From positions 1 through 50,326 of the IMG/VR virus record IMGVR_UViG_3300027893_000005: a DNA stretch of 50,326 nt, one strand, 5' to 3'. A program made the position numbers and the translations under genes. The notes beneath the pieces were generated by a model that saw only the letters and a program-made list of their open reading frames with translations, ran no database searches and had not been told where the DNA came from. This DNA is from a virus. Shown piece after piece: positions 3,742-34,763 of this stretch. Each line of letters opens with the position of its first letter. Position 1 is the first letter of the stretch.

Positions 3742-4203
3742 CTATTCGGTTGTTAGCGCTGCGTCCGAGTAGCGGCGCTCTGAAAGCTGCGCGAATCGAA
3801 GCCCGCGCAGCGCCAATTCTTCTTCTGATGGCCGAGAAGCTCTCGGCTTTATCAGCCCAGCAAATTCGATGACCGACCTGGCCTTGTCCTGCTTCACCTT
3901 GAGATGAGGAAGAATGTGACGCAGGAATCGAATTCCCTCCGTCTTGGCCAGTTGCCACAAGTAGAATGGTTCAGGCCCAGACCTTGAGTATATTCTACCA
4001 CCCCACCGATTCTGCAACCAGTGCAGCGGGGCCGGGTCTTTCTGCCCAATCCCGACAGTGATTGAGTACCTGACTGAATAGCCTGGCCTCTTCCCTGGCT
4101 GGCAGACAACGCTGACCCAGCCCTCACCGTCGAAGAATCCGGCAGCATAGGCCCTGTCGGTCTTATTAAGGTACTTGCTCTGTCGCTTGAAGCGCCTGAT
4201 CAC
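3742..4203 (-). CDS. LAGLIDADG homing endonuclease, free-standing
   Basis: The predicted 153-residue protein carries one LAGLIDADG-type motif at residues ~19-28 (YAAGFFDGEG), the dimer-interface and catalytic-acid helix of this family. It also has basic residues and the strand pattern YSVRYSITVGIGQKD seen in single-motif enzymes, which work as homodimers. The GTG start at 4203 follows AGAAGAGG. The frame is open up to an ATG at 4287, but that would lie deep inside the upstream gene. It overlaps the end of the 1807-residue gene by 38 bases and sits before the scaffold gene, so it looks like a selfish insertion in the late operon. No intron is visible. Confidence 0.8.
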   Translation of the reverse strand: MIRRFKRQSKYLNKTDRAYAAGFFDGEGWVSVVCQPGKRPGYSVRYSITVGIGQKDPAPLHWLQNRWGGRIYSRSGPEPFYLWQLAKTEGIRFLRHILPHLKVKQDKARSVIEFAGLIKPRASRPSEEELALRGLRFAQLSERRYSDAALTTE

Positions 4204-7200
4204 TGTACCTCTTCTCGATGGAGTATTCGAGTCGCTCGGCTGGAGGGAACCCCACACCGGGGATCGCCAAGTCCCAGCGCCTCTCATCTCCGACTTTCAA
4301 CTGCTCCAAGGTTACCACAGGGAGTCCGAGAGTGTCAAGTATCTGGTTGAACTCGTCCAGCACAGAGTAGATGTAGTCCAGCCGGGCGACCCCATCCAAA
4401 GTGTAGTAGGTCTCACGAATCTCCATGAGTCGGCCGTAGGCAGCGGCAGCCTCGGAGGTAGTGAACCCTACCGGCTCATTACCGAAGAAACGTTCCAGAA
4501 GCGGGTGAGTCTCCCACCAATCCTCCTGTAGCGCCCGCCTCATCTTCGTGGGAACGCTGGTAAGCTCACCAATGGCCAGGTAGTATTCCATCTCCTGGCC
4601 AGCCTGCTTGTACAGTTCCTGCACCGCAGAGGGCGGCTGCTTCCCACGGTTGAGGAAGAGATTGAAGTCATACCGGGACACCAGGCGCTTGCCCTCTTCC
4701 AGAAGCAGGGCCTGATCCTTGTCCCGGCGCTCGATGATTCCGGGAATATCTCGCGTGCGATTTTTTCTGGTCGCTTCATTAAGCTCGTAGCTGGCCTGGA
4801 TCGCCCTGGCGTAGTGCTTGACCGCCAACTCGAACTGGGCAGTGGCACTCATGCGACCGGGCGGTAGGTCGAGGAGGAAGTTCTGCCGGGCCTCGTCGTA
4901 CTGCTCCCTGGCAGCGGTGACCTGCTCATCGGTGGCAGCCTCCAGCGTGACGCCCTTGGGCAGGAAGTCCTCGATGCGGATGTTGTAGTAGTCGTTCCGC
5001 AGCGTCATGAGTGCGCGAGTGAACGGGGGGTGAGAGGCAGAGGGAGTCAGATCAACGTCAGCGTACCGGGCGTAGACCTGGGACACCTCATCCTGGTACT
5101 TCTTGATGACTTGGGCCTGCTCCTGCTCGAACAGGTCGCGGTAGGTGCGACCCACCTTGGTGTTGTAGAACTCTTCCTTCTCCCGGATCGCGGCCAGGGC
5201 CTCGTTCACCGGGGCCAGTTCCCGGTCGCGGGCCTCCAAAGCATCGATCAGGTCGTGCCAGAACAGGGTCTTGTGAAGCTCGGCAGTGCGCTCCTCCGGC
5301 CCAGCAAGACCAGCCAGGGCCACCCGGCGCACCTGGTACTCAGGGAACCGCTCGTAGAACTCCTCAAGCTGGCCACGAGCAGCATAGTCGCGGTACACAG
5401 GATCGAGCGCCCGCATCATCTGCTCACCTTCCGGGTAAAGCTGGATGGGAGAGAACACCCAGGAGGACATGAACCGGATGCCAGCCTCCTTCGAGGCAAG
5501 CTCGCGGGCCTCCTCCCACAGAGGGCCGGACTTGGTATCCATCGCGGCCAGGTAATCGCGGAGCAGTTCCTTGGTCTGCTCAGGGCCAATCTCCGCAGCC
5601 TTCCGGGTGTAGAGCCCGGCCAACATGCGGTCGATACGATAGGTGTCCCACTGGTCGTCTGGAATACCGATCAGGCGCTGGAGCTTGTTCAGCGGCAGCC
5701 CAGAGCCCCCGATAAGCTGCCCCATGTCATCATCGGTGAGCCAGTCCGGTAGCTCAACGTCGGCACCGTTCAGGAAGGCCATCACGCCCATCTGAGCAGT
5801 CGTTCCAGGAAGACCAAGGGGCAGAGCACGCGGCCAGTTGCGGTTCAGCCACTCGTCCCGCTCCAGGAGGCCAACCATGCTTCCTGCAATCGGGACGAAA
5901 GGATGAACAGCCGGGCCATTGTTGGACATCCAGTCCAGGATGCGCCCGGCGACGGTGGTCTGGCGGCTCTCGAAGCTCCAGTCCTGCGCCCACTGCATGG
6001 TAGGGAACAGCATAGGGATCGGATTGAAGAAGACCTTGGTAGCCGGGCCGTAAGTGGATGCCATCATGTCGCCCAGGAAAGGCACGGGCAACTCGAAGTC
6101 GCCCTCGAAACGTTGGGGGATGTCGGTGGTCATCTCTTGCATCATGTCCCAGCCAAGGGCAACAGAGGCCACGGCACCAGGATTGGAGGACGTGCGCTGA
6201 GCCCACCGCCACATCGACCGGGTGGGCCAGAAGTGATAGGGGAACACCCACTGGAGCCACTTGTCGATCCCGTACTGGCGGGAGTAGTCAAGCATCGTCC
6301 AGTCGGCAGCGGCGCGTCCGGCATTGATGGAAGTAAGCTGCAAGTCCTTGTAGTCACCACGGAGACCGCCGATCCAGTCAATGGCCTGTTGGCGCAAGTG
6401 GACGGGGACACCCTCTGGCGGCTGGGTGAGCATGTTTAGCATCTTGGGCTCGGCCCAGTCCAAGAACTCCATCGCCCAGCGGTTCTCGCCGGTGATGGCC
6501 TCAGCGGTCACAGGCATCTCGTACATGCCCATGTTGTACTCGCGCGGGCGAGGGGCCAGGCCCATCAGGTCACGCTCAGTCCGCACCTCCTGGTTGATCC
6601 ATTCATGGATGCGGCGGCGTGTCGGCCCCATTAGCTCCGCCCGCTCGTAATAGCGAATGTCCTCCCCGGCCTCCAGCGCCATGCGGAGAGCGCGGTCGCG
6701 GGCTCGCAGGGAGTCCATACGCACATCGCGGATCACGCGGAAGCTGGGCAGAAGGTTGGGGTTGAACTGGGTAATGAGGGACTCCAGGCTCTCCATGTTC
6801 AGTTCAAGCTCCCGCAGGCGGGTCTTCTCATATTCGCGCCACAGGCGGTCGATGCCCTTTTCGCCCCCCTGGTGAGCAGCGAAGATGCGGGAGCGATCAT
6901 GGCGCAAGCGCTCGTACATGGCCCTGGTGCGGCCCAGGTACTCGTCGGCCTGTTCGCGCGGAACGCCGTGGGCCAGCAACCAACGGTCAGTCATCTCGAC
7001 GCGGGTGCGGCCGAGGGCATCGTCGGCCACTTCAATGCTATAAACGTTCTCGCCGGTAGAGCCCTGTGCCTTGCGAGCAGCGCGGATACGCTGGTCAAGG
7101 TCAGCGAACTCGTCCTCCAGGCGGGCGACCTCTTCGGGGTCGGTGACCCGGCCCTCCTGGATAATGTTCTTGATCTCCCGGCGGCGGGCAGTAAGCTCGG

Positions 7201-9589
7201 CCAGGTCTTCGGCGGGCTGAGCGTCGGCAAGCTGGCCAACCGGCTCCAGGTGCTGCATCTTGCGCACCTCGTCGATGTCGCGGCGCAGAGCCACGCGCAC
7301 CTCGTCCAGACGGCGCAGTAGGTCGTCCGCGTCGGTGGCAGCCTTGAACGTATCCTGGAGGTGGGTAACCAGGCCCATCTGGTCGAAGCGCTCCTTCATC
7401 AGGCGGCGCACAGCGGGCTCAAACTTTTGGCCGCTGGCCTTCTCGATCTCACGCAGCCACCGCTCCCTGAGCACACCAACGTGCAGGGGCGGGGCACCGT
7501 CGCGGATCATCTTCTCAGCATCGTCAAGCATCTCCAGGAAGCCAGCTTCCGGGGAGGAGTCCCAGAGAGCGTAGAGGTGCTCAGACATCTCTTCCGGCAT
7601 CCCCTTGAGAAGCTCATCAGGGATAGGCTTGGCAATCTTGTGCCAGTTGTGCCGATAGGAGCGGAGTACCCCAACCTCGAACGCCTTCAGCCTAGCCCAG
7701 CCATCGAGCCATGTGGCAGCCGAGACGAACGGCACCCAGAAGCGGAACTTGGACGGGCGCACGATCTGGCCGGTAGCGCCAGGCTTGGACACACGCTGCG
7801 TAACGCCCACAAGCTGGCCAAGGGCAGAGTCGCCAGCGTTGGCCACAATGACTGACTCGTCCAGGCCAACGTTCTTGAGGTTCCGCACCATCGTGGACTT
7901 GCGGAGACCGCCACGGAAGACGCCGAAGCCATAGTCGAAGAACATGGTGGCGAAGTTGTTGAGCCCATTCAGGAGCACGAAGGAGGGGGTGTTCAGGGTA
8001 GTGGCAGACAGCAGGCGCTTGTTGAGCCCGAACAGCTTATTCATGGCATTGTCCGGGTGGATGTCGTAGGCGGCAGCGATGGCCTTGTAGACCCGCTGGT
8101 TGACCTCCTCCAGGAACTGCATCCGCCAGGCGTCGTGCCCCCGCGAAAACTGGCGAGCGACCTTGGCCGCAGCCTTCGGGCTCTTGGCCATAGCCTCGCC
8201 CATGAGTGTATCGTACTCAGTGGGATCAAGGATTGTGCGCTTCAGGCTCTGGAAGGCGGACGGGCGTACCTGGTAGGCGTCGAAGATTTGCGACAGTCTC
8301 ACGGCCGTCTCATTCTGGGCAAACAGCCTGGGCATGTGGGCCGGAAGCTGGTCAACGTTGCCGGTGCGCATCGCGTCGAAGAACAAGGACACGTCCTCCG
8401 GGCGCACGCGGACATCACCGGTCATCTGCGCGAACATCGTGAACCCCTTGCGCCACAGCACGTCAGCATTGTGTTCCGGGGTAGCCTGCCACAGGCGAGC
8501 CCACCACGACGGCGGGCCAGTCTTCTCCCTGAAGCGCAGGCCACGTTCGATGATCCGCATGGAGCGGGCCTCGGCTTCCTCAATGGCCCGCAGCTTGTGA
8601 GGGGGGCCAAGGATAGAGCGAGCGAGGCTGGCTACCCGGCGCACACCGGGAATCTTGGAGATGACGGCCTCACTCCGAGCGGCCTTGTACAGGTTGATCG
8701 GGGCCTCGCCGCCACCGATCACGCCGAACTCGGCAATGAGACCAACCTTTCTCATTCCCTTGACACCCTGGAGCGGCTTGGCGATGAAGCCAGCGCCACC
8801 AACGAGCCACAGAGGGTCGTAGATGACCTTCAAGGCGGCGTCGGCCCAGAGGTTGCCATACTTCTGCATGATGCCAGGGTTCTCAGGGTCGTCGTTGTTC
8901 CAGTCCTCCCCCCGCTGCATGGCCCTCTCGACTTCCTTGATGTAGGTGCCAGAGAAGTCGCCATGCTGGAGAGAGGTTCCAATGATGTCGTAGTACATGG
9001 AGGCAAGCTCCCAGCGGGAGTAGCCGTCTGGCACGTCGTTGTACCAGACGTAGGTCATAGGGTAGCCCAGAACCTGCTCCGTCCGGTCTGATGTCCACTC
9101 CAGAGCGTCCATCGTGGCACCGAACACGTTGCCAGCCCGGTCAGCGAAAGCGCCGCCCAGCCTCTCCCAGAAGCCCCGGCTGGGCTTGGGGGCGACTAGC
9201 TTCCACTCCTCCTCGGTGACCGGCATGATACGACCGCCAGTCTCGGACTCGATCTCGCGGATGACGCGATAGCGCTCCGTCTCGGGAAGGAAGCGAAGAA
9301 GCTCACGCGAGAGAACCTCCTGTTTGGAGGGAGAGAGACTGGACATGGCCAGGTCAATGTCCTGGAAGACGGACACGCCCTCTGGCCAGTTGCCGGGCAA
9401 GACGTTCTGCTCGACCATGCGCTGGGTGAAGCCTAGAGGAGCACCCTCCACAGCCTCTGGCGCACGCTCAAGGTCACGCTCGGCTATGACAGCCTGCGGA
9501 TCAAAAGGAGGAGCCGTGGGCTTCGGGACGCCCTCATCAAGCGCCTGAAACTCACGCTCCGCTTGCGAGAGAAAGCGGTCGTCGGGCAT
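4166..9589 (-). CDS. giant internal virion / ejection-like protein (1807 aa)
   Basis: This is the largest gene in the window. The product is mostly helical and rich in Glu, Arg and Trp. A central segment (~res 530-570) has TPSFVLLNGLNNFATMFFDY, and a later one has WVFPYHFWPTRSMWRWAQRT followed by short Pro-rich loops (PVPFLGDMM). Such features occur in very large internal or ejected proteins of short-tailed phages, including ones with large polyvalent-protein-type domains. No tape measure is found elsewhere, and the gene lies between portal and scaffold genes. A role inside the capsid, ejected with the DNA to extend the tail or breach the envelope, is the best inference. No lysozyme motif was identified. 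The ATG at 9589 overlaps the preceding TAA. Confidence 0.7.
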   Translation of the reverse strand: MPDDRFLSQAEREFQALDEGVPKPTAPPFDPQAVIAERDLERAPEAVEGAPLGFTQRMVEQNVLPGNWPEGVSVFQDIDLAMSSLSPSKQEVLSRELLRFLPETERYRVIREIESETGGRIMPVTEEEWKLVAPKPSRGFWERLGGAFADRAGNVFGATMDALEWTSDRTEQVLGYPMTYVWYNDVPDGYSRWELASMYYDIIGTSLQHGDFSGTYIKEVERAMQRGEDWNNDDPENPGIMQKYGNLWADAALKVIYDPLWLVGGAGFIAKPLQGVKGMRKVGLIAEFGVIGGGEAPINLYKAARSEAVISKIPGVRRVASLARSILGPPHKLRAIEEAEARSMRIIERGLRFREKTGPPSWWARLWQATPEHNADVLWRKGFTMFAQMTGDVRVRPEDVSLFFDAMRTGNVDQLPAHMPRLFAQNETAVRLSQIFDAYQVRPSAFQSLKRTILDPTEYDTLMGEAMAKSPKAAAKVARQFSRGHDAWRMQFLEEVNQRVYKAIAAAYDIHPDNAMNKLFGLNKRLLSATTLNTPSFVLLNGLNNFATMFFDYGFGVFRGGLRKSTMVRNLKNVGLDESVIVANAGDSALGQLVGVTQRVSKPGATGQIVRPSKFRFWVPFVSAATWLDGWARLKAFEVGVLRSYRHNWHKIAKPIPDELLKGMPEEMSEHLYALWDSSPEAGFLEMLDDAEKMIRDGAPPLHVGVLRERWLREIEKASGQKFEPAVRRLMKERFDQMGLVTHLQDTFKAATDADDLLRRLDEVRVALRRDIDEVRKMQHLEPVGQLADAQPAEDLAELTARRREIKNIIQEGRVTDPEEVARLEDEFADLDQRIRAARKAQGSTGENVYSIEVADDALGRTRVEMTDRWLLAHGVPREQADEYLGRTRAMYERLRHDRSRIFAAHQGGEKGIDRLWREYEKTRLRELELNMESLESLITQFNPNLLPSFRVIRDVRMDSLRARDRALRMALEAGEDIRYYERAELMGPTRRRIHEWINQEVRTERDLMGLAPRPREYNMGMYEMPVTAEAITGENRWAMEFLDWAEPKMLNMLTQPPEGVPVHLRQQAIDWIGGLRGDYKDLQLTSINAGRAAADWTMLDYSRQYGIDKWLQWVFPYHFWPTRSMWRWAQRTSSNPGAVASVALGWDMMQEMTTDIPQRFEGDFELPVPFLGDMMASTYGPATKVFFNPIPMLFPTMQWAQDWSFESRQTTVAGRILDWMSNNGPAVHPFVPIAGSMVGLLERDEWLNRNWPRALPLGLPGTTAQMGVMAFLNGADVELPDWLTDDDMGQLIGGSGLPLNKLQRLIGIPDDQWDTYRIDRMLAGLYTRKAAEIGPEQTKELLRDYLAAMDTKSGPLWEEARELASKEAGIRFMSSWVFSPIQLYPEGEQMMRALDPVYRDYAARGQLEEFYERFPEYQVRRVALAGLAGPEERTAELHKTLFWHDLIDALEARDRELAPVNEALAAIREKEEFYNTKVGRTYRDLFEQEQAQVIKKYQDEVSQVYARYADVDLTPSASHPPFTRALMTLRNDYYNIRIEDFLPKGVTLEAATDEQVTAAREQYDEARQNFLLDLPPGRMSATAQFELAVKHYARAIQASYELNEATRKNRTRDIPGIIERRDKDQALLLEEGKRLVSRYDFNLFLNRGKQPPSAVQELYKQAGQEMEYYLAIGELTSVPTKMRRALQEDWWETHPLLERFFGNEPVGFTTSEAAAAYGRLMEIRETYYTLDGVARLDYIYSVLDEFNQILDTLGLPVVTLEQLKVGDERRWDLAIPGVGFPPAERLEYSIEKRYSDQALQATEQVP

Positions 9590-17298: not shown

Positions 17299-17372
17299 GG
17301 GCGCTTAGTTTAACGGAAGAACGCTGCGCTCCAAATGCAGTAGCGGGGGTTCGATCCCTTCAGCGCCCGCCA
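17299..17372 (+). tRNA. tRNA-Trp (anticodon CCA)
   Basis: A full cloverleaf can be drawn over 74 bases. The acceptor stem is GGGCGCT/AGCGCCC with discriminator G and an encoded CCA end (17370-17372). The D stem is GTTT/GAAC. The anticodon stem is CTGCG/TGCAG with loop CTCCAAA, giving anticodon CCA at 17331-17333. The T arm contains TTCGATC. The anticodon reads UGG, the normal Trp codon, not UGA. It begins six bases after the stop of the RHH gene. Confidence 0.93.
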
Positions 17373-17375
17373 AGG

Positions 17376-17450
17376 TGCAGGGTCGTCTAGCGGTAGGACA
17401 CCTGGCTCTGAACCAGGAGATCGGAGGTTCGAATCCTCCCCCTGCATCCA
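17376..17450 (+). tRNA. tRNA-Gln (anticodon CTG)
   Basis: This is a 75-base cloverleaf. The acceptor stem is TGCAGGG/CCCTGCA with discriminator T and encoded CCA (17448-17450). The anticodon stem is CCTGG/CCAGG with loop CTCTGAA, so the anticodon is CTG (17408-17410), reading CAG. The T arm is GGAGG TTCGAAT CCTCC. Only three bases separate it from tRNA-Trp, so both are processed from one transcript. Confidence 0.93.
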
Positions 17451-33719: not shown

Positions 33720-33755
33720 AAGGAGGTGTATCACTATGCCGCTACGGTTCAACAC
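33720..33755 (+). repeat. 36-bp direct repeat, copy 1 (start signal of gene 33736)
   Basis: This exact 36-base stretch begins AAGGAGGTGTATCAC and ends with the seventh codon of the gene. It recurs at 34728-34763, 1008 bp away. It covers the ribosome binding site, spacer, ATG and codons for MPLRFNT. This copy belongs to the 300-residue gene at 33736. Confidence 0.9.
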
Positions 33756-34638
33756 AAGGAAGGCTGCTGAAGAGGGTGATGAGTTCAGCTACATCGCCCG
33801 CGTGCAGACCTTCCAAGAGGTAGACCTGACGCCGGACGAGCGGGCTGATTATGGTGCCAAGGAGGGCACCGACCAGTTCCAGCTTCTCATCTCTCTGGAG
33901 GGCGTCAGCGTCGAGTGGGTTGGGGACGAAGGCAACCTTCGCACCTTCTGGGCGAAGCGCACCCAGCCCGATGGCCAATCCAAGAAGGGCCGGAACAACA
34001 AGTCGTACCAGATACTCCAGTACCTGATTGCCCCGACTGACCCTGACGACGCAGAGGCGGAGGGCTTCGTGGACAAGGCCGGTAATCCTATCACCGGTCT
34101 GGGCTACGACGACGACGCCCCCGACTTCCCTCAGTGCCTTGAGGGGAAGATCGTCAAGGTAGCTCACCGTTGGGTGACGTTCGGGCGCGACCCGGAGACC
34201 AAGGAGCCCATGCGCTCCATGATCCCGGCGATCCTGGAGATACTGGACGACGACTACGTGCACGAGGGCCAGGTGCCGAAGATCACCTACAAGGGTCGGC
34301 GCACTTCTTCCCGCGAGGAGGGGGAGCCTACCGGCGGTACGGGTGAGGCCAAGGCACCGGAAGAGGTCGAGGCTGCCGATCCGGAGGAGTTCTTCGCGGC
34401 TATCGATGGCAAGCAGCTTCATCTCCAGTCCCTGCACGAGGCCGTCAAGGACAACCCCGGTCTTCAGGTGGAGCCCTACCGCACACTCTACGCTTCCAAG
34501 GCCGGGCGCAAGGCCCTCGTCGATTCCGGCTGCATCAGTGTGGATGACAGCACCCCGCCGGTCATCACGGTCGAGGAGGCCCTTGACCTTGAGGCCCTAG
34601 AGGAGCTTGCTGACTCCGCACGGAAGGCCAAGAAGTAG
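33736..34638 (+). CDS. putative single-strand-binding-like protein
   Basis: The 300-residue product starts MPLRFNT behind AAGGAGG. Residues ~15-170 look like an OB-fold-type beta protein (EFSYIARVQTFQEVDL, FQLLISLEGVSVEWVG, LEGKIVKVAHRWVTFG). There is a charged Gly/Glu linker at ~185-215 and a helical C-terminal domain of ~90 residues. Position between helicase and Cas4-like/Sak4-like genes fits an ssDNA-binding protein. This is inference from context and fold pattern, not from a clear family match. Confidence 0.5.
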   Translation: MPLRFNTRKAAEEGDEFSYIARVQTFQEVDLTPDERADYGAKEGTDQFQLLISLEGVSVEWVGDEGNLRTFWAKRTQPDGQSKKGRNNKSYQILQYLIAPTDPDDAEAEGFVDKAGNPITGLGYDDDAPDFPQCLEGKIVKVAHRWVTFGRDPETKEPMRSMIPAILEILDDDYVHEGQVPKITYKGRRTSSREEGEPTGGTGEAKAPEEVEAADPEEFFAAIDGKQLHLQSLHEAVKDNPGLQVEPYRTLYASKAGRKALVDSGCISVDDSTPPVITVEEALDLEALEELADSARKAKK

Positions 34639-34657
34639 CTTCGGCTCTAGGTTGGTA

Positions 34658-34702
34658 GGGGCAGGCCGGTCATAGGCGTTTGGCGGAAGGCTGACCTGCC
34701 CC
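34658..34702 (+). promoter_or_regulatory. intercistronic stem-loop
   Basis: GGGGCAGG (34658-34665) pairs with CCTGCCCC (34695-34702), an eight-pair G+C-rich stem around a 29-base loop that can fold further. It lies in the 105-bp gap between the ssDNA-binding-like gene and the second 36-bp repeat. It may be an mRNA processing or stability element. No U-run follows. Confidence 0.45.
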
Positions 34703-34727
34703 ACCTGGAGTGCAGCTAGGAGGCTAT

Positions 34728-34763
34728 AAGGAGGTGTATCACTATGCCGCTACGGTTCAACAC
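34728..34763 (+). repeat. 36-bp direct repeat, copy 2 (start signal of gene 34744)
   Basis: This is identical to 33720-33755. It provides the ribosome binding site, ATG and first seven codons of the 115-residue gene at 34744. An ATG follows directly after the repeat (34765), which may have been the original start before the duplication. Confidence 0.9.

Follow-up and report, generated by a model that had tools for sequence, protein, structure and literature searches.

Near-identical sequences shared by otherwise unrelated neighbouring genes have been described in the Cluster I mycobacteriophages, where the adjacent genes 67 and 68 of Island3 are near-identical over 60 bp at their 3′ ends (PMC3029335). 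This was explained by recombination at the gene boundaries, in which a gene lying between the two copies may have been lost or acquired (PMC3029335). Sequences repeated at the starts of genes are known as Start-Associated Sequences (SAS and ESAS) from the Cluster K mycobacteriophages and the Cluster EF Microbacterium phages (PMC3203893, PMC7302621). They consist of a 13-bp motif, GGGATAGGAGCCC or GGGAAAGGACCCC, which is present at numerous ribosome binding sites per genome (PMC3203893, PMC7302621). The initiation region of a gene can also be a target of regulation: the gp32 SSBs of T4 and RB69 bind the initiation region of their own gene, which acts as an autogenous translational operator (PMC535899). 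No phage case of duplicated ribosome binding sites was found in the literature searched.

The DNA analysed here, referred to as the window, is a whole IMG/VR virus record of 50,326 bp. It is a metagenomic record of an uncultivated phage, has a G+C content of 61% and encodes a terminase, a major head protein, a family A DNA polymerase, a helicase and a Cas4-like exonuclease. A leftward open reading frame of at least 1584 aa (4166-8920) is located among the structural genes; it has no PHROGs match, and its product may be a tail or tape measure protein. At 17299-17450, near the switch from the leftward structural genes to the rightward genes, lies a pair of neighbouring tRNA genes, Trp(cca) and Gln(ctg).

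The preliminary description of the window reported an exact 36-bp duplication of a translation start, with the copies placed 1008 bp apart at two neighbouring genes. This is confirmed: the copies form a direct repeat identical at 36 of 36 positions, and such a pair has a chance expectation of approximately 1e-12 in the window. The coordinates of the repeat and of the surrounding features are collected in Table 1.

Table 1. Features of the duplicated translation start and its surroundings (positions in the window)
Feature	Start	End	Strand	Remarks
Repeat copy 1, probable donor	33720	33755	+	AAGGAGGTG Shine-Dalgarno, spacer, ATG 33736, codons MPLRFN and 2 bases of T; forms the beginning of the 300-aa gene
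Upstream gene, 300 aa	33736	34638	+	Open reading frame; sits in replication/recombination gene cluster
Strong RNA hairpin predicted between the genes	34644	34711	+	34639-34727 folds at -42.9 kcal/mol, z -2.29
Putative old Shine-Dalgarno TAGGAGG	34717	34723	+	Displaced 36 bp from its ATG; layout as in L034
Repeat copy 2, putative insertion	34728	34763	+	Shine-Dalgarno, ATG 34744, codons MPLRFN and 2 bases of T
Downstream gene	34744	35091	+	115 aa including the extension, otherwise 108 aa; belongs to the R[AP]GEDWxRGNDLxDG phage family
Internal ATG, putative old start codon	34765	34767	+	Coincides with, or lies close to, the starts forced in L017, L034, L032 and L038

As in Island3, a short near-identical direct repeat is located here at the ends of unrelated neighbouring genes. 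The Island3 repeat is the 3′ coding end of the genes, whereas the window repeat comprises the 5′ initiation region and the first codons. The window also differs from Island3 in that what appear to be the recipient gene's own Shine-Dalgarno and ATG are left as fossils on both sides of the copy. With the SAS, the window shares a repeated sequence over the ribosome binding site before several genes of one phage. However, the SAS are 13 bp long, occur in many copies, stop short of the start codon and recur in conserved form in different phages, whereas the window repeat is 36 bp long, has two copies, reaches seven codons deep into the genes and is present in no other record. Its sequence is different, and its 19-bp core has no third copy in the window even when up to 3 mismatches are allowed; an assignment to the SAS was therefore rejected. 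The gp32 operators resemble the window in the placement of an element at the initiation region of a gene of the replication cluster, but in the window no conserved RNA structure is seen and a second, unrelated gene bears the element. The window repeat fits the type of event described for Island3, but placed at the opposite gene end, and it lies outside the SAS definition.

The repeat consists of AAGGAGGTG, a gap of 7 nt, the ATG with five further codons and two bases of the seventh codon. This seventh codon is ACA in the first copy and ACC in the second; since both encode threonine, the two proteins start with the same seven residues, MPLRFNT. Divergence immediately after these residues had also been described, and indeed the copies part at base 37; the next 6 bases match at four positions, as may occur by chance. 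The sequences to the left of the copies are unrelated, no long microhomology was seen at the junctions, and the adjacent genes share no similarity on either side of the 36 bp. Over the first 150 nt of both genes the identity is 0.37 with the repeat counted in. The pair is the sole direct repeat of such size in the window. In other phages, neither the exact DNA of the repeat nor MPLRFNT, however encoded, downstream of a GGAGG site was found. A survey of 77 other phage stretches revealed no exact repeat of at least 18 bp covering the Shine-Dalgarno and start codon of two different open reading frames, so that the window itself gave the sole hit; this survey covered approximately 1.05 Mb in pieces of up to 20 kb, many of them partial and some overlapping, all from contigs that bear the motif of the downstream gene, and is a small, non-random sample.

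The donor of the repeat is probably the upstream gene, because removal of its copy takes away its only plausible start. No other in-frame ATG is present near its 5′ end, and the sole other in-frame start in its first 66 codons is the GTG at 33802, which lacks a Shine-Dalgarno. The gene begins 19 nt after the helicase stop codon, an arrangement normal for the window. The direction of transfer claimed in the preliminary description, from the upstream gene to the downstream one, is thus supported; the transplantation of a complete initiation signal itself is supported by the relatives of the downstream protein. The label "ssDNA-binding-like" that the same description gave to the donor was not borne out by any family, structure or sequence relative. 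The 300-aa protein had no match in Pfam, PHROGs, PDB sequences, phages, IMG/VR or GTDB genomes, and no relative of its gene was present in the 35 IMG/VR records bearing the motif of the downstream gene. Its single-sequence structure model reached a pLDDT of 34 and was unusable. A search for relatives of the locus through the helicase, polymerase, Cas4-like and AAA genes returned distant helicases only. The place of the gene between the helicase and the Cas4-like and AAA genes suggests a role in replication or recombination.

The downstream gene has an ATG of its own right after the repeat, as previously stated; it lies one base past the second copy and in frame. Subtraction of the 36 bp yields TAGGAGG-CTATC-ATG, which has the make-up of a standard start, the spacer being 5 nt long. 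Of the 1507 ATGs in the window, only 3.2% are preceded by a 6-nt Shine-Dalgarno core at a spacing of 4-10 nt. The relative L034 starts with TAGGAGG-AAGAG-ATG and has the same spacing and the same in-frame TAG inside the Shine-Dalgarno as the repeat-subtracted window. We consider that no other single observation argues as strongly as this layout for an insertion of the repeat between the Shine-Dalgarno and ATG of the downstream gene.

The relatives of the downstream protein are consistent with an old start at the internal ATG. In L017, L034, L032 and L038 the start is forced, because only a few codons, none of them another start codon, separate it from an in-frame stop on its upstream side. These forced starts are located 7, 11, 12 and 9 residues, respectively, before a conserved tryptophan; the internal ATG precedes this residue by 7 residues and the transplanted ATG by 14. 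Neither MPLRFNT nor a similar sequence is present in the relatives. The comparison with homologues proposed in the preliminary description thus places the family starts at or near the equivalent of 34765. Across the family, 7 to 66 residues precede the tryptophan; the N-terminal length varies so widely that length alone is no proof of an insertion. A search for a close relative with or without the 36-bp insert found none, and the probable pre-insertion state is deduced from relatives with about 41-57% identity.

The family was extracted from 35 stretches retrieved by an IMG/VR scan for the motif EDWxRGNDL. It comprises about 30 viral contigs beyond the window, which encode proteins with 27-54% identity to the downstream protein; over about 100 residues, the closest relatives reach 57% (L017, 102 residues) and 51% (L034, 105 residues). 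The downstream protein itself contains the intact C-terminal motif and the conserved region before it. The sequence R[AP]GEDWxRGNDLxDG is nearly invariant in L001, L004, L005, L007-L014, L016, L017, L021-L024 and L026-L038, which are diverse in composition and gene context. The records L013, L019 and L025, from different samples, encode an identical family member (MMNKIDELKKWFEEIARYCRVDRF...), which suggests that the same large virus is present in several samples. No Pfam, PHROGs or NCBIfam model describes the family, the only Pfam match being marginal and unrelated, and four members compared with 50,697 phage records had no match. A model of the downstream protein from a 31-sequence alignment has a mean pLDDT of 86 and a first helix from residue 5, and the MPLRFNT extension is compatible with this predicted fold. 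Foldseek returned no match below 0.1 for this model. VIA-align gave Z scores of up to 9 to Mediator parts and to RWD/UBC-like and chaperone-like folds; these matches reflect a common alpha/beta arrangement that gives no function, and a functional assignment from them was dropped.

The anti-Shine-Dalgarno duplex energies were scored over 55 start sites in the window. The second copy ranks second (-17.5 kcal/mol) and the first copy fourth (-16.7 kcal/mol). The putative pre-insertion site of the downstream gene has a mid-range value of -10.2 kcal/mol, and the internal ATG, which today has no Shine-Dalgarno upstream, is the weakest of the 55 at -3.1 kcal/mol. Initiation should have moved to ATG 34744, because the site with the insert is stronger than both the site before insertion and the internal ATG. 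Judging from these values, the downstream gene is most likely now translated from ATG 34744 and its predicted protein carries MPLRFNT at the N-terminus.

We propose that non-homologous (illegitimate) recombination or template switching placed a copy of a 36-bp segment, with the translation initiation region of the 300-aa gene, approximately 1 kb downstream. The segment would have landed in frame in the 5-nt spacer between the Shine-Dalgarno and ATG of the unrelated downstream gene. As a result, a near-perfect Shine-Dalgarno and ATG 34744 would drive this gene and add seven residues to its product, and the old Shine-Dalgarno and the old ATG would persist as flanking fossils. The reading we favour and consider probable is that a complete translation initiation region was recently copied, in frame, onto the adjacent gene.

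An unlikely alternative is that the ancestral order was helicase, repeat, downstream gene, and that a 1008-bp unit consisting of the repeat, the 300-aa gene and the spacer with the hairpin was taken in by recombination at the repeat; the reverse recombination would delete the 300-aa gene. Such a gain has been proposed for Island3 gene 68 in comparison with Brujita, and there the 60-bp shared ends of genes 67 and 68 provide the precedent (PMC3029335). Deletion of the 1008 bp would also leave a compact junction, with 19 nt between the helicase stop and the ATG, of a kind that is usual here, whereas the present gap of 105 nt is unusual. This gap with its hairpin stands out in the compact gene cluster; the hairpin has no T-run terminator and belongs to no Rfam family. 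However, the gain of such a unit requires that the repeat stood before two unrelated genes beforehand, and the relatives of the downstream gene do not begin with the residues it encodes. It also leaves unexplained why a TAGGAGG, a 5-nt spacer and an ATG remain when the repeat is subtracted.

That the second copy is absent from the real phage genome and arose as an assembly or amplification chimera is considered very unlikely. In its favour, the window comes from metagenomic data in IMG/VR, and the repeat was found in no further record. However, a repeat of 36 bp is shorter than ordinary reads, and it can be reasoned that a misjoin between two copies would delete the middle segment and not add a copy. 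The copy is moreover in frame and precisely between a Shine-Dalgarno and a start codon.

Least probable among these alternatives is a selected translational operator, by which one regulator, possibly the product of the upstream gene, would control both genes, the second copy having been captured for shared control. The copies are identical at synonymous positions too, phage SSBs are known to exert autogenous control at initiation regions (PMC535899), and repeated start-associated motifs with a suspected regulatory role occur in other phages. However, no family match or usable model shows the upstream gene to be an SSB, there are two copies only, and recent copying accounts for their identity without selection. 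RNA structure in the repeat regions does not exceed that of shuffled sequences (z -0.17 and +1.03), and the two regions fold differently. A structured operator RNA common to both starts was rejected on these grounds; an operator without structure would be compatible with them. The broader idea of a naturally occurring "operator plus tag" transplant within one phage genome, in which the 36-nt initiation region would be a portable unit of regulation under selection and its copying would have placed both genes under one translational regulator, is likewise given little weight. An origin by whole-gene tandem duplication and subsequent deletion was rejected as less economical, since similarity stops at both ends of the 36 bp. 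The downstream gene was rejected as donor, since it has kept a fossil start of its own and MPLRFNT is missing from its relatives.

Under the favoured reading of a recent copying, the event may have been selected, for higher expression or for a match to the upstream gene, or may have been a neutral accident. As one case with a predicted effect, its importance is moderate, and it can be regarded as a neat but modest example of phage gene rewiring. Such events can mislead the annotation of gene starts and homology searches. If the reading is true, the downstream gene has been caught just after its whole translation start was swapped for that of its neighbour, with the old sites still readable, and events of this kind would change both the N-terminus of a protein and its expression level at once.
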